Assembly: GCA_029932675.1 (NCBI GenBank)
Contig: JAOZPP010000041.1
Location: 1 to 24,329 of the forward strand
From: a bacterium
GTDB lineage: Bacteria > SM23-81 > DAOVCL01
Length of the DNA: 24,329 nt
Direction: 5' to 3'
The position numbers and the translations under genes were made by a program. Below the pieces are notes generated by a model, which searched no databases, was not told where the DNA came from, and saw nothing but the letters and a program-made list of their open reading frames with translations. Positions 1,898 to 23,391 of the stretch are shown one piece after another (position 1 is the first letter of the stretch; every line of letters begins with the position of its first letter).

Positions 1898-3706
1898 TTA
1901 ACGGATTAAGGCGAGTTTCCTCACTTGACTGAAACCACCTGTGATCAGGCGGCAGAAATAGATCCCACTTACCAGCTCCTTTCCTTGGTTATTCCTCCCA
2001 TCCCAAACTACCCGGTAACTCCCCGCTTTTTGTTTCTTATCTACTAAGGTTACCACCTCCTCTCCTAAGATATTGTAGATCTTCAAGGTGGTGCGGACAG
2101 GGGAATTCTTAATTCTTAATTCATAATTAATAATTGTGGTTGCGTTAAACGGATTGGGATAGTTCTGTAAGAGAGCAAATTGAGAGGGCAAAACCTCCTT
2201 GTACCCTGGCTCAACCCAATCCACCACCCCTAACTGCCCTTTCCCATTCACCTGCTGCCCATAGACATCCCAATCAGTTTCGTAGTTCAACTCTGTCCAG
2301 ACAATTATGGCACCACCGGAACCATCTGATACTATGCTCTGACAATCTTGAGTCCGAAGCTTCCTCGATATGGGAATGCCATTTTCCTTCCATCTCACCA
2401 CTCCCGCAGAATCTATCCTCTGGCCGTAGATGTCACAGTCCCAATTCGTCTCATTCCGTCTATCCTCCCAGGCTATGATCACCCCTCCAGTGCCATCCGT
2501 GCACATCCTTCTCCGACCCGGACATCCCACGGCTCCATCGCAGATCAGCACTCCCTCCTCATCCCACAAGAGATTTCCCAGGCTGTCAATACGCTGAGCA
2601 TATACACTCCGATGCACCCCCCAAAGGGTGTCCGCAACAGACCAGACTGTGATAGCACCGCCTCCTCCATCCGAAACAACCTTTCCTCCTCCACTAAGTT
2701 CTAATCCCACAGGGGAGACCTGAACCCCACCCTCCCCCCATAGAGGGTTACCATCTCCATCCAGCCTCTGAGCCTTCACGCACGAATAATCGTGTCCGCC
2801 ATGCCTTCCCTCATACCTTGAACCAACTAAGATGACCCCTCCGTCCCTCATAGGAAGCATATAGCCAACAACGGTGCTCTCCGGTGCCTCAGGCCAGGGG
2901 TGAATCAGATTCTCTCCCCAGAGTTTGTGGCCATCCCTGTCCACCCGTTGAAAATAACCATTCTCATAACAGAATACAGCCCCTCCCTGCCCATCAGGGA
3001 CCAGATCGGTAAACCCGAAGTAGAAGCTATCCGGATCGTGATAGCAGAGCATCTGCACCCCTACCGAATCCCACATAAACTCCCCCTCCGGGCTCATCCT
3101 CTGCAGCCACACCTTCATCTCCTTGTCCTTGATATACCTGGTCCTCACAAAGATGATGCCTCCCTCCCCATCATTAACCATATGCTCTGCACCATAAAAG
3201 GTGTCACCCATCACTGAATTCATCGGGGTCATCTGGATGCCCTTCTCCCCCCAGAGGGGATTGGCCAGGCTATCATACCTCTGAAAGAAGACCATAGAGC
3301 TGTCCTCCAGAAGAGTCTGGTGATTAAAATAGACATCACGAATGATGAGATACCAGCCACCATCGTTGTTCTTCAGGATCCCATCCCGAGCGATGGATCT
3401 CCCATGATAGTTGCCTGGTGAGCTCTCTATCAACCTGGCAGAGTTTCCCCAAAGCAGATAGCCCTCTCTGTCTATATGTTGAGCATACGCATCTACCTCC
3501 CACTCGTATGGGCCTGTTCTGTGACCGAAAATCACTATGGCTCCCCCAGCACTATCGGATAACAAAGTTCCGGCAGCTCCCTGATCACCATACCAGTTGC
3601 AGATAGGGGTGTTCTCAGTGCAGCTATGTGACCACTGGGCCTCCACCGAAGAGGCCATCATAATGAAGCCAACAACCAACAAAATGCCCTTTGCCATTTT
3701 CTTCAT
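1898..3706 (-). CDS. Secreted repeat protein with T9SS-like C-terminal sorting domain
   Basis: Start chosen at 3706 (MKKMAKGILL…), where AGGGGG stands about 8 nt upstream and a signal peptide (ending VEAQ) begins. An in-frame ATG at 3784 would only add a translated low-complexity repeat. The protein has about 602 aa. The body is built of degenerate repeats of roughly 50 residues with the pattern DGxGGxIxxW, then D…YxQRxDxxGxxLWxxxG, a beta-rich solenoid or propeller-like type common in secreted proteins of candidate phyla. From about residue 513 follows QNYPNPFNATT…LKIYNILGEEVVTLVD…GIYFCRL, a FlgD-like Ig fold used as a type-IX-like sorting signal. The last 90 residues are nearly identical to those of the neighbour upstream. 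Function is unknown; surface display or secretion is inferred. Confidence 0.85.
   Translation of the reverse strand: MKKMAKGILLVVGFIMMASSVEAQWSHSCTENTPICNWYGDQGAAGTLLSDSAGGAIVIFGHRTGPYEWEVDAYAQHIDREGYLLWGNSARLIESSPGNYHGRSIARDGILKNNDGGWYLIIRDVYFNHQTLLEDSSMVFFQRYDSLANPLWGEKGIQMTPMNSVMGDTFYGAEHMVNDGEGGIIFVRTRYIKDKEMKVWLQRMSPEGEFMWDSVGVQMLCYHDPDSFYFGFTDLVPDGQGGAVFCYENGYFQRVDRDGHKLWGENLIHPWPEAPESTVVGYMLPMRDGGVILVGSRYEGRHGGHDYSCVKAQRLDGDGNPLWGEGGVQVSPVGLELSGGGKVVSDGGGGAITVWSVADTLWGVHRSVYAQRIDSLGNLLWDEEGVLICDGAVGCPGRRRMCTDGTGGVIIAWEDRRNETNWDCDIYGQRIDSAGVVRWKENGIPISRKLRTQDCQSIVSDGSGGAIIVWTELNYETDWDVYGQQVNGKGQLGVVDWVEPGYKEVLPSQFALLQNYPNPFNATTIINYELRIKNSPVRTTLKIYNILGEEVVTLVDKKQKAGSYRVVWDGRNNQGKELVSGIYFCRLITGGFSQVRKLALIR
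2043..2167 (-). repeat. 125-bp sorting-domain repeat, copy 1
   Basis: This stretch of the 602-aa protein gene matches 4114-4238 at 123 of 125 positions in the same orientation, 2071 bp apart. It encodes QNYPNPFNATTIINYELRIK and on through LKIYNILGEEVVTLV. Flanking coding sequence diverges at once, so the block is a recent duplication or conversion patch. Confidence 0.92.
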
Positions 3707-3722
3707 CGTTATCCCCCTTTGG

Positions 3723-3826
3723 CTGAGTCTCTTGAGTTCATTGAGTTCACTCAGTTTATTGAGTCCTTGAGTCAATTGAGTCATAGAGTTTATTGAGTTC
3801 CTTGAGTCATTGAGTTAGTTGAGTCC
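3723..3826. repeat. Degenerate tandem TTGAGT repeat, period 8-9 bp
   Basis: GAGT (once CAGT) recurs at 3725, 3734, 3743, 3752, 3761, 3769, 3778, 3786, 3795, 3804, 3812 and 3821, twelve copies spaced 8 or 9 bp. On the minus strand this reads as repeated AACTCA, directly upstream of the ribosome site of the 602-aa secreted protein, so it would be in its 5' leader or promoter region. Confidence 0.9.
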
Positions 3827-3877
3827 ACTTTTCGTCATTCGTCTCTCCTCTCTATCCCTATCTAATCTCCCACAGAG

Positions 3878-3901
3878 GCGTCAGAACCCTGATTCTGACG
3901 C
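3878..3901. repeat. Hairpin repeat, TCAGAA type
   Basis: Perfect 9-bp arms GCGTCAGAA / TTCTGACGC around CCCTGA. It lies between two minus-strand secreted-protein genes. Related TCAGAA hairpins occur at 6658 and 7057. No T-run follows on either strand, so an ordinary terminator is doubtful. Confidence 0.8.
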
Positions 3902-3956: not shown

Positions 3957-6116
3957 TCACCGCAAGAGTAACATCTTCCTCGTCTTTACCACCTTCCAAC
4001 TATCACCTTTCACCTCTAACCTGCAAAAGTATATCCCTGAACTCACATCTCTCCCTCCTTTATCCTTGCCATCCCACACTACCTGGTAAAAGCCAGGCCT
4101 TTGCCTTTTGTTTACTAAGGTCACCACCTCCTCTCCTAAGATATTGTAGATCTTCAGGGTGGTGCGGACAGGGGAATTCTTAATTCTTAATTCATAATTA
4201 ATAATTGTGGTTGCGTTAAACGGATTGGGATAGTTCTGAGATAAGGAGAAAGAACGAGGCACAAACCCAGGCCTAATAGTCTGCACACCTTCCAATTCAA
4301 ACCAATCGTGCAGGATGTGCCACATCAGGGTATCCGCCTGGGGGGTAAGGGTGCTGGTATCGGCACAGTCAACAATTGCCTCAAAAGACCAGGGCAGAAA
4401 GACTGTCTTAAACCCTTTGGGACCACCTAACCTGGTGCCACTATATTCTCCGCTCTCCCCTCCCTTAAAGATGTCTACTCCCTCTCGTGTAGCCTGGGTG
4501 TAATCAGCCCAGTTGGCTACCCCTATACAACTTGGATGTAACTCCACAGGGTCATCATAGAAACTTCCAGATACAGGATTATCAACATCTACCCCATAAA
4601 ATGTTGTATCTCCAAGGCTGATGGTATCCTGCATATGGGGGTCGCTCACACAGGACTCCACTCCTAAATAGTCATAGGCAAACTCCCCAGGGTGGAAGCT
4701 TGTCTCTACCCCACTGGGTAAACCTGCCTTCCAGAAATAGTCCTGATCAGCAATGAAAAGTTCCCCCCCATTGTTTAGATACCTGATGAGCGGATGATCA
4801 GCCTCCAAGGCATCAGGCCGAGGCAGGTTGCTACATCCCCATCCAAACCAGATCACCGCATCCCATGCCTTTCCTTCATAGCTATGGAGAACTACAGAGC
4901 TGTCTATCCCGTGGTTCTCCTCAGTAAACCAGGTGGGCTCATAGGAGTAGCCCAACCTGTCCAGCAGATTCTCATAGTATCTAGCCCTCTGCCCGCTCAC
5001 ATCCCCATCTCCCACCAGAAGTATCTGTGCCCCCGGATTCTGCGGCTCCTTGATGATAAAGGACTTAACCTCCTCTGTTGGAAAACCCATCCAATCACTG
5101 GAGTTGCCATCGTTGTCCACACAGGTGCACCAGTAGCTTATGGTATCATCCACTACAAAAGGCCCAGGAAGATAACTGACGGCTGTATAGTTGCTTCCCT
5201 TTGTCTCTGTCAGTGTCATAGGGACCTCGGCCGTATCCTCAGAGCCGCTTACCGTATAATGGAGGGTGGCCTCAGTTATCCAGCCATCAGGATCAGACAT
5301 CTGGGCAGTTATCTTGATGTTCTCCCTCAACCAGGTGTTACTCCTCTGTTCGGATTTTGCTGTAGGACGAAAACGCGGATTCCCGTAATAGCCAACTACT
5401 GCCTTCATCATAATCTCAGGGCACCAATGCTCCGGCCGTCCCTGCGAATAGTAGTAGACAAAATACCAGTGGCCATCGTGGCCATAAGTAAATCGCCAAT
5501 GTTGAGTATAATTATAAGGAGGATAGATAGGTTCATAGAGACTGTAATCGTCCATATAGATGTAAGGCTTCCCATAAACATCCGATCCAAAACCTACCCC
5601 AAAGAGGCTATCCCCTGGAAACTGCAATACATAACCCTCAGGGAGTATCCTGAAATCATACCACTCCCAACCATCAGTTCCAGAAATATCCCACTCGGCT
5701 GGGCCAGGCAACTCATTATCGGTTACTGGCCAAGGGTGTGAAGAATCACTGGAGGAGTATCCATACCTACAGATAAAGAGCCTGGCAGTCCCTGAGCTGG
5801 AGAATACACCACCAACTGCGTAAAGGGAGCAGGGGGCAAGGGGCTTGAACCAATTCACTGTGCTGTCATAAGGGCTTAAGTAATTGCCAAAATCTCTAAG
5901 GGGAACTCCATTACACCAGGTCATCGTATCGATGACCATACCATTGGTCGATACCAAGTGATGCCTCAAGCCTGTCTCCTCTACAAACTTGGCTTCTCCC
6001 CGATTTATCGAGGTCAACCCAAGTTTATACCCCCCTGCACCTGAGGCACATAGGGGAATAGCAGCCAGGGCCAAGATAATTACCAAGAATACGGGTCTCA
6101 TACTTATCTTATGCAT
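3957..6116 (-). CDS. Secreted multidomain protein with T9SS-like C-terminal sorting domain
   Basis: A 719-aa protein with an N-terminal signal peptide (hydrophobic residues 8-24, likely cut in CASGAGG). The first 240 residues are rich in W, Y and G and resemble a beta-sandwich. Residues about 255-350 form an Ig-like domain (ITAQMSDPDGWITEATLHY…DNDGNSSDW). At about 361-460 lies a Rossmann-like region: ILLVGDGDVSGQRARYYENL, AVIWFGWGCSN, NNGGELFIADQDY. It looks like the class-I-glutamine-amidotransferase-like domains found in secreted proteins, but I see no catalytic triad I can assign. From about 627 comes QNYPNPFNATT…LKIYNILGEEVVTLV and a terminal GIYFCRL segment, the sorting domain. GGGAGGAG sits just upstream of the ATG. 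The preceding small ORF stops within a few bases of this start. Confidence 0.82.
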   Translation of the reverse strand: MHKISMRPVFLVIILALAAIPLCASGAGGYKLGLTSINRGEAKFVEETGLRHHLVSTNGMVIDTMTWCNGVPLRDFGNYLSPYDSTVNWFKPLAPCSLYAVGGVFSSSGTARLFICRYGYSSSDSSHPWPVTDNELPGPAEWDISGTDGWEWYDFRILPEGYVLQFPGDSLFGVGFGSDVYGKPYIYMDDYSLYEPIYPPYNYTQHWRFTYGHDGHWYFVYYYSQGRPEHWCPEIMMKAVVGYYGNPRFRPTAKSEQRSNTWLRENIKITAQMSDPDGWITEATLHYTVSGSEDTAEVPMTLTETKGSNYTAVSYLPGPFVVDDTISYWCTCVDNDGNSSDWMGFPTEEVKSFIIKEPQNPGAQILLVGDGDVSGQRARYYENLLDRLGYSYEPTWFTEENHGIDSSVVLHSYEGKAWDAVIWFGWGCSNLPRPDALEADHPLIRYLNNGGELFIADQDYFWKAGLPSGVETSFHPGEFAYDYLGVESCVSDPHMQDTISLGDTTFYGVDVDNPVSGSFYDDPVELHPSCIGVANWADYTQATREGVDIFKGGESGEYSGTRLGGPKGFKTVFLPWSFEAIVDCADTSTLTPQADTLMWHILHDWFELEGVQTIRPGFVPRSFSLSQNYPNPFNATTIINYELRIKNSPVRTTLKIYNILGEEVVTLVNKRQRPGFYQVVWDGKDKGGRDVSSGIYFCRLEVKGDSWKVVKTRKMLLLR
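4114..4238 (-). repeat. 125-bp sorting-domain repeat, copy 2
   Basis: Partner of 2043-2167, with differences only at 4122 and 4157. It lies near the 3' end of the 719-aa protein gene and encodes the same sorting-domain segment. Confidence 0.92.
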
Positions 6117-6535: not shown

Positions 6536-6576
6536 CCTGTAATCCGCTCCTTTCGGACAGAGCTAAAGTCTTGTCC
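6536..6576. repeat. Decayed copy of the double-hairpin element
   Basis: CTGT, two odd bases, then TCCGCTCCTTTCGGACAG lines up with the middle and right half of the 7149-7209 element (CTGTCCGCTTCTTTCGGACAG). The following hairpin has lost several pairs (GGACA…TGTCC kept). Confidence 0.6.
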
Positions 6577-6590
6577 CCACGATTCTTTCA

Positions 6591-6606: not shown

Positions 6607-6657
6607 GAACCTTTTCCCATTGAGGTAGGGAAAACCCCCTTCTGCCACCTCTGCCGT

Positions 6658-6673
6658 CAGAATCGGGGTTCTG
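6658..6673. repeat. Hairpin repeat, TCAGAA type, eroded
   Basis: Arms CAGAA / TTCTG around TCGGGG. The sequence on both sides resembles that at 7055-7087 (CAGAATCGGGGTTCTG, then a downstream CTCAG), so these are two copies of one element in the same orientation. Confidence 0.7.
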
Positions 6674-6690
6674 CCAGCTCAGGGAAACTT

Positions 6691-6714
6691 GGGACAGGGC
6701 TTCAGCCCTGTCCC
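6691..6714. repeat. Hairpin repeat, GGACAGGGC type
   Basis: Perfect 10-bp arms GGGACAGGGC / GCCCTGTCCC with loop TTCA. The same hairpin forms one half of the double elements at 7149 and 18088 and recurs with one mismatch at 23370. Confidence 0.85.
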
Positions 6715-7056
6715 TGATGCCTCTAAAAATCCAAAAAACAAAAGCCGGCCTACCTCAAACTCGCAGCCCGGCTATCCGCACTTATTAGACTCCAGCTTAT
6801 ATTGTTGTTTGCTTCAGACCCCGGGCTCTGTGCCCTAACTCCCCTCGGCCACACTCTCCCGCAGGTCAGATGGGATGATCCTCCGTTTGCCTTTTGTTTA
6901 AAGATAGGAACCCTTCCCCTTACAGTCAAGGATTTTTTTGAAGTTTTCTTTGGGTAAGAGTGGCACAAAGTTGCTTCCCTCTATTAGCTTTCCGCTAATA
7001 AATTGCAAGAGGGTATCTAATCTTATTTCCTGTTACTTTCCCTGTTCTCTTTGCCC

Positions 7057-7087
7057 TCAGAATCGGGGTTCTGACGACTCAGAGGGC
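7057..7087. repeat. Nested hairpin, TCAGAA type
   Basis: Inner perfect arms TCAGAA / TTCTGA around TCGGGG (7057-7074). An outer pair, GCCCTC at 7053 with GAGGGC at 7082, can close over it. Confidence 0.75.
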
Positions 7088-7148
7088 TTATCCCGGATTA
7101 TTCATAAGCCAATGACGATCCCATTATCCAGAGGTTGTTCGGTCATCC

Positions 7149-7209
7149 GTAGGGACAGACATTTATGTCTGTCCGCTTCTTTCGGACAGGGCTTCAGCCC
7201 TGTCCCTAC
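7149..7209. repeat. REPIN-like double-hairpin element, copy 1
   Basis: A 61-bp unit with inverted ends GTAGGGACAG / CTGTCCCTAC. Inside are two perfect hairpins: arms GGACAGACA / TGTCTGTCC with loop TTTA (7153-7174), a linker GCTTCTTTC, then GGACAGGGC / GCCCTGTCC with loop TTCA (7184-7205). Its reverse complement matches 18088-18147 over the whole length with a few changes in linker and loop. Confidence 0.9.
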
Positions 7210-7530
7210 AACACAAAACCTATGCATATTGCAGATCCTCACCCTAATTTATGAATGGGTCGGGTTATACACAGCTCATGATCTTTAATTTATTAATCGG
7301 GTAATCGAGAAGCAGGGGCCGGAGGTGATTCTCGAACCAGGCATAATCTTCACCCTCTCCTTAGTCCTTCCCCATCAAGAGGACGGAGATTGTTCGAAGG
7401 CAATTGAAGCGTTTTTCCTTTTTGCAGGCAGGTGGAGGCAGCTTTTGCCAGATTATTTTTTAATTTAGTAAATCTGCGTTAGTCTGCGTCCCTTTGCTAT
7501 TCCGGCCTCTAATGGGATTCCTAAAATCCC

Positions 7531-8824: not shown

Positions 8825-10372
8825 ATGATTCGGGAGTTTAAGAATGAGACCTATGTTGACTTCTCCCAAGAGGAGAATCGGGCAAAGATGGAAAGTGCCC
8901 TTGCGGAAGTAGCCTCGCATCTGGGCGAGGAGTATGAACTGATCATTGGCGCACAGAGGTTGAAGGCCCCAAAGCAGTTTAAATCCATCAACCCCTCTAA
9001 TAAAGATGAAATAGTGGCAGTGCACCAGAAAGCGGATAAAGGATTGGCCCAGAAGGCAATTGAGGAAGCCCTGAAGAGGTTTGAAAGCTGGAGGTGGGTC
9101 GAGCCTGAGGAGAGGGCAGAATACCTTTTTCGGGCCGCTGAACTGATGAGGGAGAGGAGGTTAGAGCTTGCCGCCTGGGAGGTTTACGAGGTGGGAAAAT
9201 CCTGGCCTGAGGCCGATGCGGATGTAGCTGAGGCCATAGATTTCTTGGAATTCTATGGTCGGGAGATGATCAGATATGCCCAACCCCAGCCCCTGGTGAA
9301 GATCCCTTCAGAGGAGAACGAGCTGGTTTACATCCCCTTGGGCGTGGGGATAATCATCCCCCCCTGGAACTTCCCTTTAGCCATCTTGGTGGGTATGACT
9401 TCAGCGGCGCTAGTCACCGGAAACACCGTCGTTCTGAAACCTTCCAGTGATTCTCCTACAATTGGGGCCAAGTTCGTGGAGATATTGGACGATATTGGCC
9501 TTCCCCCGGGAGTGCTCAACTTCCTGCCCGGAAGTGGGGCTGAGGTGGGGGATTACCTGGTTTCCCACCCGAAGTCCCGGTTCATCAGCTTCACCGGCTC
9601 CAAGGAGATCGGCTTGAGGATAAATGAATTAGCCGCCAAACAGGCTCCAGGGCAGATCTGGATCAAGAGGGTTGTTGCCGAGATGGGGGGCAAGGATGTG
9701 ATCATAGTGGAGGAGGATGCCGATTTGGAAGAGGCTGCCCAAGGTGTGGTGAGCTCCGCATTTGGGTTTCAGGGGCAGAAATGTTCCGCCTGTTCCCGGG
9801 TGGTAGTCTCCAGCAAGATATATGATCGCTTCTTAAATATGCTTGTGGAGAGGACGGAGAAGATAAAGGTGGGACCGGCCAAGGATCCGGAGAACTATAT
9901 GGGGCCGGTAATCAATGAGAGGGCCCTGGCCTCCATCTCCGAGTATATCGAGATCGGGAAAAAAGAGGGAAGGCTTTGTTGTGGTGGGGGAAGGGTAGAG
10001 GGAAATGGCTACTTCCTCCAGCCCACGATATTCGCCGATGTGGACCCTTATGCCCGGATAGCCCAGGAGGAGATATTCGGTCCGGTCTTGGCGGTAATCA
10101 AGGCCGATGGATTTAACCAAGCCCTGGAGATTGCCAACTCTACCGAATATGGACTTACTGGATCCCTTTACAGTAAGGATAGGAAGAAGATCGAGAGGGC
10201 GAAGAGGGAGTTTCATGTGGGCAACCTCTACATCAACCGCAAGTGCACAGGGGCTTTGGTGGGGGTTCACCCATTTGGCGGGTTCAATATGTCTGGAACA
10301 GATTCCAAAGCGGGGGGAAGGGACTATCTTCTCCTCTTCCTGCAGGCCAAGGCCATCTCCGAGAAGGTTTAA
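8825..10372 (+). CDS. rocA: L-glutamate gamma-semialdehyde (1-pyrroline-5-carboxylate) dehydrogenase
   Basis: A 515-aa aldehyde dehydrogenase, the same length as Bacillus-type RocA. It oxidises glutamate-5-semialdehyde to glutamate with NAD+, the second step of proline and arginine breakdown. Visible family marks are PPWNFP (oxyanion Asn), the general-base Glu286 in VAEMGGKD, the catalytic Cys320 in GQKCSACSR, FTGSKEIG in the cofactor domain, and the C-terminal HPFGGFNMSG. The N-terminal NPSNKDEIVAVHQKAD region also fits RocA. The ATG is preceded by GGAGCGGAG. It has its own promoter and a long leader (8587-8824) and no proline dehydrogenase next to it, so the partner enzyme must be encoded elsewhere or the substrate comes from arginine or ornithine. 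The subfamily call rests on length and overall likeness. Confidence 0.9.
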   Translation: MIREFKNETYVDFSQEENRAKMESALAEVASHLGEEYELIIGAQRLKAPKQFKSINPSNKDEIVAVHQKADKGLAQKAIEEALKRFESWRWVEPEERAEYLFRAAELMRERRLELAAWEVYEVGKSWPEADADVAEAIDFLEFYGREMIRYAQPQPLVKIPSEENELVYIPLGVGIIIPPWNFPLAILVGMTSAALVTGNTVVLKPSSDSPTIGAKFVEILDDIGLPPGVLNFLPGSGAEVGDYLVSHPKSRFISFTGSKEIGLRINELAAKQAPGQIWIKRVVAEMGGKDVIIVEEDADLEEAAQGVVSSAFGFQGQKCSACSRVVVSSKIYDRFLNMLVERTEKIKVGPAKDPENYMGPVINERALASISEYIEIGKKEGRLCCGGGRVEGNGYFLQPTIFADVDPYARIAQEEIFGPVLAVIKADGFNQALEIANSTEYGLTGSLYSKDRKKIERAKREFHVGNLYINRKCTGALVGVHPFGGFNMSGTDSKAGGRDYLLLFLQAKAISEKV

Positions 10373-10426: not shown

Positions 10427-10493
10427 CTATGGTTTATAAACCTCCTGCAGATTTCAAATCTGCAGGAGGTTGCAACACCATAAGTAGGGCTTG
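10420..10493. mobile_element. MITE-like palindromic element
   Basis: A 74-bp unit with imperfect inverted ends (CAAGCCCCTATGGT and ACCATAAGTAGGGCTTG) enclosing a 33-bp palindrome: 16-bp perfect arms beginning AACCTCCTGCAG at 10439-10454 and 10456-10471 around a single C. It carries no gene. It lies between rocA and the COG2403-type gene, just upstream of the latter's ribosome site. Confidence 0.6.
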
Positions 10494-16821: not shown

Positions 16822-16838
16822 TGAAATCCACTTGTAGA

Positions 16839-16858
16839 GACTCCGACTTAGCGGAGTC
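16839..16858. repeat. GACTCCG hairpin
   Basis: Perfect 7-bp arms GACTCCG / CGGAGTC around ACTTAG, in the fabH to HEPN spacer. It has the same design as the other hairpins but a different arm sequence. Confidence 0.75.
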
Positions 16859-16933
16859 CGAGGGAAACTGCCACAGTGGGGTCAGCCGGGAACTTTTTGT
16901 AATGTTCAGGAATGAGTAAAGGTCCTAATAATT

Positions 16934-17284
16934 ATGAATGCTGATGGACATTTGAAAAGAGCCCATTCCATCCAGCAAAGTCTGGATAAACTGCTTCCTG
17001 ATCCAGAGGGAATCAATGTGGCTTCCATTGTTGAACTTACATACGGATTTATGTTCCACACAATTGCCTTTGGAATGGAAACCAAATATAATAGACATCT
17101 TGATACCCATGTAGGGTTACCGAGGGAATTAAGGAAGATTGGGGAGAACGAGATAGCGGACTGGTTCGAGGAAATCGACCTGTTTAGAGCAGGGCGATGG
17201 TATGGTTCCAAGGGAAATGGAGAAGTTGTTAAGAAATGTCTGGAGCTTGCGAGAAAAATAAAGTTATGGGCAACCGCCAAATAG
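16934..17284 (+). CDS. HEPN-domain protein, probable toxin of an MNT/HEPN pair
   Basis: A 116-aa mostly helical protein. Residues 54-59 read RHLDTH, which matches the R-polar-x3-H form of the Rx4-6H motif that forms the RNase site in HEPN toxins such as HepT. The following gene overlaps it and encodes a nucleotidyltransferase with GSx10DxD, the usual partner (MntA-like), which silences HepT by adding nucleotides to it. Pairing, size and motif make a HEPN/MNT toxin-antitoxin module the best reading. The order here is HEPN first. The ribosome site is poor (AAAGG about 13 nt upstream). The base composition looks more AT-rich than the fab genes on both sides, suggesting acquisition. The fold is inferred from pattern, not search. 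Confidence 0.7.
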   Translation: MNADGHLKRAHSIQQSLDKLLPDPEGINVASIVELTYGFMFHTIAFGMETKYNRHLDTHVGLPRELRKIGENEIADWFEEIDLFRAGRWYGSKGNGEVVKKCLELARKIKLWATAK

Positions 17285-17895
17285 CTGAAGAGTTTAAAAG
17301 CGCGATTATTGATTTTATCTCCAGAGCCTCTGAAATTCCTAATCTGATTGGGGCAATTTTATTCGGATCTGCGGTGACAGGGGATATTTCTAAAAAGAGC
17401 GACATAGATGTTCTGTTGCTGTTCGACTGTGAGCACAATCCAGAGCTTGGAGAGGAGATGAGGACCTCTGTTCGCATTGCCGGCGAAATTTGTTCCAAAT
17501 ATGATCTGACTCAATCATTTTCTTTTGTTGTTGTCAATAGGCGGATGATGGGTGAGGTAGAGGCCGATTTTCTCTGGAATGTTTCCAGGGAAGGTATTAT
17601 CATTTGGGGACTTCCTCAAATGATCCTTTCCCAGAAGCCCCATCCGCACCTGGAACCCCTCCTGCTTGTCTCGTATTCGGTTGGCGGACTCCCTGAAAAA
17701 GACAGAAGAGGTGTATTTCGGGCTCTCTATGGTGGCAACAAGGATCCTAAAGGCGGTTTGGTGGACAAAAGGGGCAACGAAAGGTTGGCTCCCGGCACAC
17801 TTTTGGTTCCTGCCACTAAATATGATTCCATAAAAGATGTATTCGATAAGTTTGGGGTGAGAACATACTCTGTAAGGAAATTGTGGGGACATTAG
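17236..17895 (+). CDS. MNT-type nucleotidyltransferase, probable antitoxin, with C-terminal extension
   Basis: Up to 219 aa. The pol-beta-type nucleotidyltransferase motif is complete: Gly44-Ser45, ten residues, then Asp56-Ile-Asp58 (ILFGSAVTGD…KKSDIDVLLLF). ATG 17236 overlaps the HEPN gene by 49 nt; ATG 17266 (MGNRQIAEEF…) overlaps by 19 nt and may be the true start. Neither has a strong ribosome site, so coupling to the HEPN gene is likely. The first 140 residues match the size of MntA-like proteins. After them come some 80 residues (PEKDRRGVFRALYGG … TKYDSIKDVFDKFGVRTYSV) that I do not recognise from minimal MNT antitoxins. In known pairs the MNT protein modifies HepT and blocks its RNase action; that is inferred here. 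Confidence 0.78.
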   Translation: MSGACEKNKVMGNRQIAEEFKSAIIDFISRASEIPNLIGAILFGSAVTGDISKKSDIDVLLLFDCEHNPELGEEMRTSVRIAGEICSKYDLTQSFSFVVVNRRMMGEVEADFLWNVSREGIIIWGLPQMILSQKPHPHLEPLLLVSYSVGGLPEKDRRGVFRALYGGNKDPKGGLVDKRGNERLAPGTLLVPATKYDSIKDVFDKFGVRTYSVRKLWGH

Positions 17896-18087: not shown

Positions 18088-18147
18088 GTAGGGACAGGGC
18101 GTTAGCCCTGTCCGAAAGGGCGGACAGACATAAATGTCTGTCCCTAC
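18088..18147. repeat. REPIN-like double-hairpin element, copy 2 (inverted)
   Basis: A 60-bp unit with inverted ends GTAGGGACAG / CTGTCCCTAC. GGACAGGGC / GCCCTGTCC with loop GTTA comes first, linker GAAAGGGC next, then GGACAGACA / TGTCTGTCC with loop TAAA. It is the reverse complement of the 7149-7209 element apart from linker and one loop. Confidence 0.9.
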
Positions 18148-18240
18148 GAAACACACACACAAATCATTGGCCTTGAAAAATTTATGCCAATTCATTTTCA
18201 GTTCATGAATAATTCGGGATAATTTGGAAGGAGCGAAAAT

Positions 18241-19185: not shown

Positions 19186-19925
19186 CGGAGTTAAGGGGAA
19201 GGAAAGCTCTGATTACTGGGGGGGGAAAGGGCATAGGGAGGGCAATAGCTCTGAGGTTGGCAAAAGGGGGGGCTGATGTGGCCCTCTTTGAGGTGGACGA
19301 AGGGTCTGCCCAAAAAACAGCAATTTCCATAGAGGAAATGGGGGTGAAGTCCCTCTATTTAAGGGTTGATGTCTCCCTTCAAGAGGAGGTGGAGAAGGGG
19401 GTGGAGGAGATCAACCAGCGGTGGGAGGGATTGGACATCCTGGTGAACAATGCTGGGATTACCCGGGACAACCTGATAATGAGAATGACAAGCGAGGAGT
19501 GGGATTCTGTGCTGGGAGTGAACCTCCGGGGTGCTTTCTATTGTATAAAGGCTGTCCTTAAAGGGATGATGAGGAAAAGATGGGGAAGGATTGTAAATGT
19601 GAGCTCAGTGGTGGGGAAGATGGGCAACCCGGGGCAGGCCAACTATGTCTCCTCTAAGGCGGGGCTTATTGGCCTAACCAAGGCAGTGGCCAAGGAGGTG
19701 GCCTCCCGCAGGATTACGGTTAATGCCGTTGCTCCTGGTTTCATCGATACTGAGATGACCAAGGCGTTACCCCAGAAGATTAGGGACTTGTTCTTGAATC
19801 AAATCCCCTTGGGGAGAACTGGAAGGCCAGAGGATGTGGCTAATCTCGTCTTTTTCCTTTGCACAGAGGAAGCTGGCTATATCACTGGCCAGGCTATAAA
19901 TGTTGATGGGGGAATGCTTATGTAA
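19182..19925 (+). CDS. fabG: 3-oxoacyl-[acyl-carrier-protein] reductase
   Basis: A 247-aa short-chain dehydrogenase that reduces 3-oxoacyl-ACP with NADPH. The cofactor motif ITGGGKGIGRAIA, NNAG at 89-92, and the catalytic set Ser142 (NVSSVVG), Tyr155 and Lys159 (YVSSK) are intact. The C-terminus AGYITGQAINVDGGMLM is the FabG form. Start and fabD stop share the ATGA overlap. Confidence 0.97.
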   Translation: MTELRGRKALITGGGKGIGRAIALRLAKGGADVALFEVDEGSAQKTAISIEEMGVKSLYLRVDVSLQEEVEKGVEEINQRWEGLDILVNNAGITRDNLIMRMTSEEWDSVLGVNLRGAFYCIKAVLKGMMRKRWGRIVNVSSVVGKMGNPGQANYVSSKAGLIGLTKAVAKEVASRRITVNAVAPGFIDTEMTKALPQKIRDLFLNQIPLGRTGRPEDVANLVFFLCTEEAGYITGQAINVDGGMLM

Positions 19926-20019
19926 AAAGCAGTTTATAGGAGCCAGTTTACAGGGGTCGGTGAAGACTCCTGGCGGCTGACTACTGATCATAGCCAACTG
20001 TTAAAAAAAGGAGGTTAAG

Positions 20020-20256
20020 ATGTCCGTAGAAGAAGAGGTAAAAGAGATTATAGTGGAGCAGTTAGGCGTGGATCCCGATAAGGTGACCTTAGAGGCATCC
20101 TTTGTCGATGACTTAGGAGCGGACTCCTTGGATACAGTGGAATTGGTAATGGCCTTGGAGGAGAAGTTTGGCCTGGAGATTCCCGATGAGGAGGCCGAGA
20201 AGCTGACTACTGTGGGGAAGGCCATTGAATACATTGAGAAGAATAAAAAAGATTGA
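20020..20256 (+). CDS. acpP: Acyl carrier protein
   Basis: A 78-aa acidic protein that carries the growing acyl chain on a phosphopantetheine arm. The attachment site is Ser36 in [15 protein letters not shown], exactly the usual position. A very strong ribosome site (AGGAGG) precedes the ATG, in keeping with the high amount of ACP needed. A 94-bp gap separates it from fabG. Confidence 0.98.
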
Positions 20257-21520: not shown

Positions 21521-22216
21521 ATGGAGGTAGGGGACCCCTTTACAAAAGATGAGTTGAGATCTTGGTTAGCCCAGGAGGGAATTGAGTTTCACAACTCTCA
21601 ACTTCTGAAGCTTGCCTTAACCCATGCTTCCTATGCCTACGAGAAGGGGGAGGGAAGGTCAAATCAGAGGCTGGAGTTTCTTGGTGATGCTGTTCTTGAA
21701 CTGGTAGTAAGGGAATTTCTCTATCGACTGCGACCACAGGCCGATGAAGGGGAGCTTACCAGGCTGAAGTCAAATATAGTGAGGGGAGAAACCTTAGCCG
21801 CTAAGGCGAAGGAGATGGGGTTAGGGAGGTTCATCCTCTTGGGCAAGGGGGAGGAGAGCAAGGGGGGGAGGGAGAATACCTCAAACCTGGCTGGATGTTT
21901 AGAGGCGATGATTGGAGCCATCTATTTGGATGGGGGGATGGAGATGGCCAGATCATTTGTGGAGAGGGAGGTCATTGGTGAGGAGCTGTTGTATATTCAG
22001 CCCAACTACAAGGGGGTATTGCAGGAGTTTAGCCAGGGTAGGGGGTGGGGCCTCCCCACCTATTTGGTTGGCGAACTGGAGGGGGGAAGGTTTGCAGCCA
22101 AAGTGAAGCTTAAAGGAAGGGTGTGGGGGGAAGGTAAGGCCCGCTCAAAGAAGGGTGCTGAACAGCTTGCCGCCCGTGCAGCTTTAAAAAAGTTAGAGGA
22201 AACTTATGGATTATGA
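21521..22216 (+). CDS. rnc: Ribonuclease III
   Basis: A 231-aa double-strand-specific RNase for rRNA and mRNA processing. The nuclease domain (to about 150) has the signature RLEFLGDAVLEL with Glu52 and Asp56, and Glu128 in CLEAMIGAIYLDGG. The C-terminal dsRNA-binding domain is NYKGVLQEFSQGRGWGLP … GKARSKKGAEQLAARAALKKL. Two usual positions differ: the first signature residue is Gln49 instead of Glu, and the metal-site Asp three residues before Glu128 is Gly125. Gene position after fabF is common in bacteria. The ribosome site is weak, so it may be coupled to fabF, 6 bp upstream. Confidence 0.96.
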   Translation: MEVGDPFTKDELRSWLAQEGIEFHNSQLLKLALTHASYAYEKGEGRSNQRLEFLGDAVLELVVREFLYRLRPQADEGELTRLKSNIVRGETLAAKAKEMGLGRFILLGKGEESKGGRENTSNLAGCLEAMIGAIYLDGGMEMARSFVEREVIGEELLYIQPNYKGVLQEFSQGRGWGLPTYLVGELEGGRFAAKVKLKGRVWGEGKARSKKGAEQLAARAALKKLEETYGL

Positions 22217-23369
22217 GCTTACCGAGGAGCAGTTGACAATAAAGGAGCTCTGTCGGCAGATCGCCGAGGAGAAGATAAAACCAGTAAGGGCAAAGTATGA
22301 TGAGACCCAAGATTTTCCCTGGGAGATAGTGGAGGTTTTCGCCCGATCCGATCTATTTGGCCTCTTCATCCCTCAGGAGTACGGGGGATTAGGAGGGGGC
22401 ATATTGGAGATGGTCATCGCCACCGAGGAGCTAAGCAGGGTCTGTGGGGGGATAGCCTTGGCCTTCGCGGCCACGGCTTTGGCTACATTTCCTATTCTCC
22501 TCTTTGGCTCTGAGGAACAGAAGAGAAAATATCTACCCGATATCGCTAAAGGGAAGAAGCTTGCTGCCTTTGCCCTTACAGAGCCGGGGGCAGGTTCGGA
22601 TGCTGGTGCGGTGAGGACGACTGCAAAGAGGGAGGGAGATGGCTGGTTGCTCAACGGCACAAAGCAGTGGATCACTAATGGAGGAGAGGCGGAGATATAT
22701 ACGGTGATAGCGGCAACGGATCTTAGTAGAGGTGCCAGGGGGTTGAGCGCCTTCATCGTGGAGAAGGGGACCGAGGGCTTCTCCTTCGGCAAAAAGGAAG
22801 ACAAGATGGGAATAAGGGGTTCGGCCACTCGGGAGCTAAGCTTCCAGGACTGCCTTATCCCCCGAGAGAACCTCTTAGGTAAGGAGGGACAAGGGTTCCT
22901 CATCGCTATGCGCACCTTCGATCAGTCGCGTCCCGGAGTTGCTGCTCAAGCAGTGGGTATAGCTCAGGGGGCTATGGAAGAGGCTATTGTCTACGCACAG
23001 GAGAGGGAACAGTTTGGGAAACCCATCGCCTCCTTTCAGGGGATTCAATTTATGCTTGCCGATATGGCCACCCAAATTGAGGCCGCCAGGGCCCTTACCT
23101 ATGCTGTGGCCAGGCTAATCGACCGCGGGGCCAAGAAGGTAGCCAGGGCCTCAGCTATGGCCAAACTCTTTGCTTCCGATGTGGCGATGAAGGTGACTAC
23201 AGATGCGGTGCAGATCCTTGGTGGATATGGGTATATGAAGGACTATCCGGTGGAGAAGATGATGCGGGATGCTAAGATAACCCAGATCTACGAGGGAACC
23301 AACCAGATCCAGCGGACCATTATTGCCTCCAACCTGATTAGGGAGATGGCCGGGAGGAGGAAGAAGTAG
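22206..23369 (+). CDS. Acyl-CoA dehydrogenase (short-chain / butyryl-CoA type)
   Basis: A 387-aa FAD enzyme that makes trans-2-enoyl-CoA from acyl-CoA, or works in reverse with an electron-transfer partner. Family marks are FALTEPGAGSD (FAD/substrate loop), WLLNGTKQWITNGG, QYGKP-like REQFGKPI, ILGGYGYMKDYPVEK and the catalytic Glu363 in QIYEGTNQIQR, the position used by short- and medium-chain types. The ATG follows AGAGGAAA by 6 nt and overlaps rnc by 11 nt, so it is translated with the fab operon. It could serve fatty-acid breakdown or butyryl-CoA formation; no ETF genes are in view. The TAG stop lies within a hairpin repeat. Confidence 0.93.
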   Translation: MDYELTEEQLTIKELCRQIAEEKIKPVRAKYDETQDFPWEIVEVFARSDLFGLFIPQEYGGLGGGILEMVIATEELSRVCGGIALAFAATALATFPILLFGSEEQKRKYLPDIAKGKKLAAFALTEPGAGSDAGAVRTTAKREGDGWLLNGTKQWITNGGEAEIYTVIAATDLSRGARGLSAFIVEKGTEGFSFGKKEDKMGIRGSATRELSFQDCLIPRENLLGKEGQGFLIAMRTFDQSRPGVAAQAVGIAQGAMEEAIVYAQEREQFGKPIASFQGIQFMLADMATQIEAARALTYAVARLIDRGAKKVARASAMAKLFASDVAMKVTTDAVQILGGYGYMKDYPVEKMMRDAKITQIYEGTNQIQRTIIASNLIREMAGRRKK

Positions 23370-23391
23370 GGACAGGGCTGAAGCCCCGTCC
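23366..23391. repeat. GGACAGGGC-type hairpin overlapping the acyl-CoA dehydrogenase stop
   Basis: GTAGGGACAGGGC followed by TGAA and GCCCCGTCC: 9-bp arms with one A/C mismatch. The TAG stop of the acyl-CoA dehydrogenase (23367-23369) is part of the repeat's left end. It represents one half of the double element. Confidence 0.8.

Follow-up and report, generated by a model that had tools for sequence, protein, structure and literature searches.

Known REPIN and MITE systems

REPINs, pairs of REP hairpins set head to head with a linker between them, have been described (Bertels and Rainey 2011, PMC3116915), as has their linkage to RAYT (REP-associated tyrosine transposase) genes (PMC3733652, PMC3116915, PMC6006769), and GTAG REPs, including head-to-head heterodimers of different stems, form a described superfamily (Di Nocera et al. 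2013, PMC3733652). A cognate RAYT in the same genome is usual but not required, loss of the REPtron having been reported for many E. coli strains (PMC3733652). In the Marinomonas REPtron Mb, which has a group 3 TnpA_REP, GTAG serves as guide, the loop must read T-T-N-A and perfect stems are preferred (PMC8266576). GTAG REPs are also on record inside larger elements: one lies within the MITE-sized QMITE2 of Coxiella burnetii (PMC5896051), and A. variabilis GTAG-15 dimers lie inside long palindromes (PMC3733652).

The repeats considered here, which we call family A, were encountered in a stretch of 24,329 nucleotides (the window), contig 11 of a 3.03-Mb MAG that is 97% complete (G000). Like GTAG REPs and REPINs in general, they show GTAG outer feet, short stem-loops, head-to-head pairs of different stems with a variable linker, many intergenic copies and the same units around a RAYT gene. 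They differ from the surveyed GTAG REPs in their GGAC(N5) stem, perfect 9-bp pairing and mostly TTNA loop; their hosts are Zixibacteria-like, Schekmanbacteria and Chloroflexi MAGs, and the string 'GTAGGG' is absent from the main text of the survey, figures aside (PMC3733652). The first-pass annotation had taken the arms to be unlike those of described REP families, but this is no sign of a new kind, since the described superfamily already includes GTAG-footed REPs whose arms differ (PMC3733652). A perfect stem, the T-T-N-A loop and GTAG are shared with the Marinomonas system, whose stem, however, is of 5 bp and two bases from GTAG, whereas that of family A, known here from sequence, is of 9 bp and directly follows GTAG (PMC8266576). 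As in QMITE2 and the A. variabilis GTAG-15 dimers, a GTAG REP sits within a MITE-sized element with inverted ends; unlike in those cases, the window element has a full head-to-head REPIN at its centre and a 4-bp TSD, its genus holds free REPINs and a linked RAYT, and the same TIRs occur without REPs elsewhere in the phylum. The enclosing elements resemble bacterial MITEs (review PMC10969869) in size (67-380 bp), TIRs, TSD and want of coding capacity. Family A is a new family of the known GTAG REP/REPIN kind, with a well-defined nested arrangement.

Structure and copies within the window

The unit at 7149-7209 (Table 1) comprises two perfect hairpins, exactly where the first-pass annotation had placed them: stems 7153-7161/7166-7174 and 7184-7192/7197-7205 are each of 9 bp with a 4-nt loop, and the two arms differ in sequence. 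Its folding is far more stable than expected (z about -8; none of 200 shuffles reached that stability), and both full window REPINs have folding energies about 6-8 SD below dinucleotide shuffles. A short hairpin with GTAG (or GT[AG]G) at its 5' base is the mark of a GTAG REP, and family A shows it. The GTAGGGAC ends that had been said to close the unit are not the outermost ends of this copy: the REPIN is enclosed by a MITE with TIRs and a TSD of its own, which the first-pass annotation had missed. The TGAA loop of the right REP is the reverse complement of the usual TTCA, and may make that REP a poor substrate.

Table 1. Coordinates of family-A repeats, the enclosing MITE and the linked RAYT gene (positions in the window unless a contig is named; '.', no strand assigned)
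Feature	Position	Strand	Remarks
REPIN, family A, head-to-head REP pair, 61 bp	7149-7209	+	perfect hairpins, GTAG at both outer feet
Left REP: GTAG + GGACAGACA-TTTA-TGTCTGTCC	7149-7174	+	covariance model 42.6 bits
Linker, 9 nt	7175-7183	.	differs from copy to copy
Right REP: GTAG + GGACAGGGC-TGAA-GCCCTGTCC	7184-7209	-	covariance model 41 bits
MITE, 173 bp, REPIN at centre	7092-7264	.	
Left TIR CCCGGATTATTCATAAG	7092-7108	+	1 mismatch
Right TIR CCCGACCCATTCATAAA	7248-7264	-	3 mismatches
TSD TTAT, left copy	7088-7091	.	
TSD TTAT, right copy	7265-7268	.	
Second REPIN, inverted relative to the first	18088-18147	-	92% identity to the first over the whole unit
Right half of MITE	18148-18218	-	54-nt arm 18148-18201, perfect TIR 18202-18218
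Decayed half REPIN	6543-6580	-	linker + right REP, 7/9 pairs; 82% over 38 nt
Single REP hairpin without GTAG foot	6688-6715	.	
Single REP, TCCGC-arm type	16834-16859	+	
Single REP	23366-23391	+	its GTAG gives the TAG stop of acyl-CoA-dehydrogenase-like ORF 22206-23369
RAYT ORF of the same-genus MAG (G001)	G001:C42:19489-20004		between family-A REPINs 19388-19451 and 20001-20061

Both window REPINs are intergenic. The recurrence of the unit as its reverse complement, already pointed out from the letters alone, extends over the whole of it, the left-hand half being complementary over 29 of 29 nt. The decayed third copy reported near 6536-6576 does exist, though as a linker and right half and not as a full unit. 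Beside the second REPIN only the right half of a MITE was found; its left end, lost by truncation or replacement, was not. This copy lies between fabH and fabD; in the syntenic spacer of the same-genus MAG the REPIN and the MITE end of 18088-18218 are both missing, and hairpins of other kinds are present. Also between fabH and fabD, at 16934-17895, are two overlapping small ORFs, the second an MNT-type nucleotidyltransferase and the first HEPN-like by eye; the pair is missing from the same-genus spacer.

Family A across genomes

A genome-wide search with the 61-mer, the check that the first-pass annotation had proposed, gave 47 blastn matches in G000, and a covariance model of the single REP gave 147 there, many copies and far beyond chance. 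The model matched 134 times in G001, a MAG of the same genus (Ca. Zixiibacteriota CSMAG_1030), and had no match in either of two further genomes of the phylum (G002 and G003); owing to palindromy some hairpins are matched on both strands, so that distinct REPs are somewhat fewer than these counts. Head-to-head pairs with a linker number 15 in G000 and 17 in G001.

The stems covary. In the single-REP alignment 50 cells were altered on both sides of the stem, compared with 14 in shuffles, and the covariation score was 0.51 as against 0.12, with strong compensatory change at stem positions 5-9. The alignment was pre-filtered for pairing, which biases its percentage of paired cells; the arm exchanges AGGGC/GCCCT, AGACA/TGTCT, AGACC/GGTCT and TCCGC/GCGGA are not explained by this filter. 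Relative to the GTAG foot, the loop of well-paired REPs reads TTNA in 113 and its reverse complement in 7, among copies that are related and not independent; these 7 include the right REP of the unit at 7149-7209.

Linkage to RAYT transposases

The RAYT gene of G001 lies between two family-A REPINs (Table 1), the GTAG of the second supplying its stop codon. Its product scores 118 bits on NF047646, passing the curated cut-off of 80 for REP-associated tyrosine transposases, and matches the solved TnpA_REP structure 4er8. Its closest homologues are encoded in a Schekmanbacteria MAG (L262, 61% identity) and a Chloroflexi MAG (L263, 60%), and there again GTAGGGAC hairpins, whose loops are TTTA and TTCA, flank the gene. 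In homologues of 38-45% identity GTAG is followed by other stems wherever GTAG hairpins are detectable. The RAYT-linked REPIN loci, in MAGs labelled with three different phyla, contain no exact MITE end. Linkage assigns the matching RAYT clade in the same-genus genome and in the two distant MAGs. By its similarity to characterised enzymes this RAYT would be expected to recognise family-A REPs and cut them strand-specifically, and the loop polarity is consistent with this.

The first-pass annotation took REPINs and RAYTs as the closest parallel, and the many copies together with a RAYT flanked by the same hairpins bear it out; such a gene, which it suggested looking for, is present in G001, L262 and L263 but not in the window's own assembly. 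G000 has three Y1 transposase (RAYT) genes, on C78, C72 and C104, none a close homologue of the cognate RAYT: the best in this 97% complete assembly reaches 39% identity and is flanked by another REP family. The cognate gene is possibly missing through an assembly gap. The C78 gene (L032) is flanked by a sister REPIN family, GTAGCCGCAACC-TTTA-GGTTGCG... (GTAGCCGC-type), and the C72 gene (L033/L083) by CTGAGCCGTCAGAA.../...TTCTGCCACCTCAG hairpin pairs of another family, with CTGAG/CTCAG ends; no hairpins flank the C104 gene. The window, too, has hairpins resembling the C72 family, at 3869-3898, 6655-6685 and 7057-7086.

The enclosing MITE

Inverted ends of the form CCCGRATTATTCATAA terminate the flanks of many REPIN copies. 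Matches to this TIR motif number 97 in G000, and three relatives have 53, 3 and 12; the reversed control pattern gave 0 throughout. In G000 the motif forms 33 paired elements, enclosing 67-380 bp, of which 10 have perfect 4-bp TSDs (mean 1.6, maximum 6, in shuffled pairings). G002 and G003 possess the MITE ends and lack family-A hairpins; TIRs without REPs in these two genomes of the phylum, and RAYT-linked REPINs without TIRs elsewhere, indicate that MITE and REP are separate systems. Some MITEs with the same ends carry other hairpins at their centre. In G003, which represents another family of the phylum, same-ended MITEs (L090, L107, L111) have different interiors, two of them with CTAG/TTAG duplications.

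HUH transposases of IS200 type are not known to make target duplications of this sort, and the TSDs therefore make a DDE enzyme the likely agent. No DDE transposase for the MITE was found among the candidates considered: IS1380 (PF13701) is absent, the two fragments of DDE_Tnp_1 (PF01609) each lie at the end of a contig and lack the MITE TIR, and the TIR pairs spaced like a full IS, at 1.9 kb on C8 and at 1.5 kb on G001:C71, enclose ORFs that are not transposases. At the ends of G000 contigs C30 and C73 (L039, L047), 96% identical stretches of 171 bp start with the MITE TIR and both stop at the same base, where the contig ends; each is a likely candidate for the left end of an autonomous insertion sequence, of which no completion was found in the G000 bin or 40 relatives. 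Elsewhere, at about 490-590 of locus L260 (G000:C88), decayed REPIN-like hairpins lie inside a disrupted DDE transposase gene.

Probable nesting of two mobile systems, and alternatives

In G000 a TIR stands beside 13 of 15 REPINs, and on both sides in 9, so that the REPIN probably spread in part as cargo of the MITE. The distances are mostly fixed, 36-41 nt on one side and 37-42 or 53-55 on the other, and one REP type goes with each MITE arm type in both genomes of the genus, which suggests that the REPIN was captured before the species split. Arm types here mean only the two arm lengths and the visible sequence types; clustering of arms by single linkage was abandoned because it lumped most of them, even unrelated short sequences being about 47% identical when aligned. 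Cargo is nevertheless not the whole story, given that 8 of 17 REPINs in G001 are free of MITE ends and that about half of the single REPs have none nearby; the difference between the two genomes in the MITE-associated share is a trend only (Fisher p 0.06, not significant). We regard it as very probable that the window copies arose from one mobile system nested in another: an older one, in which a RAYT drove a REPIN of the GTAG superfamily, and a MITE-driven one, the latter probably accounting for most full REPINs in G000.

Were the 61-bp unit the whole mobile element and all copies spread by a RAYT alone, one would expect the free REPINs of both genomes, most of all those of G001, and the RAYT flanked by REPINs; but the window copy and 12 other REPINs of G000 are bordered by a MITE end on one or both sides, mostly at similar distances, and the TSDs lie outside the MITE ends and not outside GTAG. 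For the window copy, its TIRs and TSD already contradict this account, which we find distinctly unlikely. Recurrence of the whole unit does not, therefore, reflect RAYT-driven spread alone.

It is more improbable still that the hairpins are simply the structured interior of the MITE and unrelated to RAYTs. Most full REPINs of G000 do lie inside MITEs, and same-ended MITEs carry other central hairpins, yet in MAGs labelled with three phyla the same hairpins flank RAYTs at loci where no exact MITE end is present, such hairpins are absent from G002 and G003, which do have the ends, and RAYT substrates share this GTAG foot and this loop polarity. Least probable of all, and slightly less so than the last, is that the units are not mobile DNA but have been retained for a function as signals in RNA or DNA, such as terminators or mRNA stabilisers: their intergenic position, the REP at a stop codon (23366) and one weak terminator-like call at 7153-7174 would suit such a role, but the window holds no Rfam family, a continuous T tail is lacking, terminator-like sites in the region number 3 against 1.5 expected, and the second window copy is not conserved at the orthologous site. 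Individual REPIN copies could still have been co-opted as signals.

Under the preferred reading of two nested systems, movement of the REPIN itself would follow the characterised TnpA_REP proteins: a displaced single strand would fold into hairpins, the RAYT, an HUH/Y1 transposase, would recognise GTAG and the loop, cut near the hairpins and move the REPIN as single-stranded DNA. A DDE-type transposase would move the MITE, with the REPIN carried as cargo, and its source would be an IS with CCCGRATTATTCATRAA ends and 4-bp TSDs. A further step, to which we give somewhat less than even credence, is that two unrelated mobile systems form a stable composite: a single capture would have placed the single-strand RAYT element at the centre of a DDE-type MITE, and amplification by the MITE would let the REPINs persist and spread in a lineage that has lost its own RAYT.

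In MAGs of three phyla an unfamiliar repeat can now be placed with its RAYT clade. Before the number of REPIN copies is taken to reflect RAYT activity, an enclosing MITE has to be checked for. Family A also offers a case of a REPIN population that may outlast its transposase, a point relevant to the maintenance of REPINs.

Other repeats in the window

The window contains further repeats. At 10428-10482, on the 3' side of an aldehyde-dehydrogenase-like ORF (8825-10372), lies a 27-nt near-perfect palindrome with arms 85% complementary and 1 nt apart. Imperfect tandem repeats of about 17 nt (AGTCAATTGAGT...) occupy 3753-3824, around the start of ORF 1898-3784. A 216-nt duplication (1952-2167 and 4023-4238, 83% identical) codes for a C-terminal sorting-type domain (NYPNPFNATT...) in two neighbouring secreted-protein genes.
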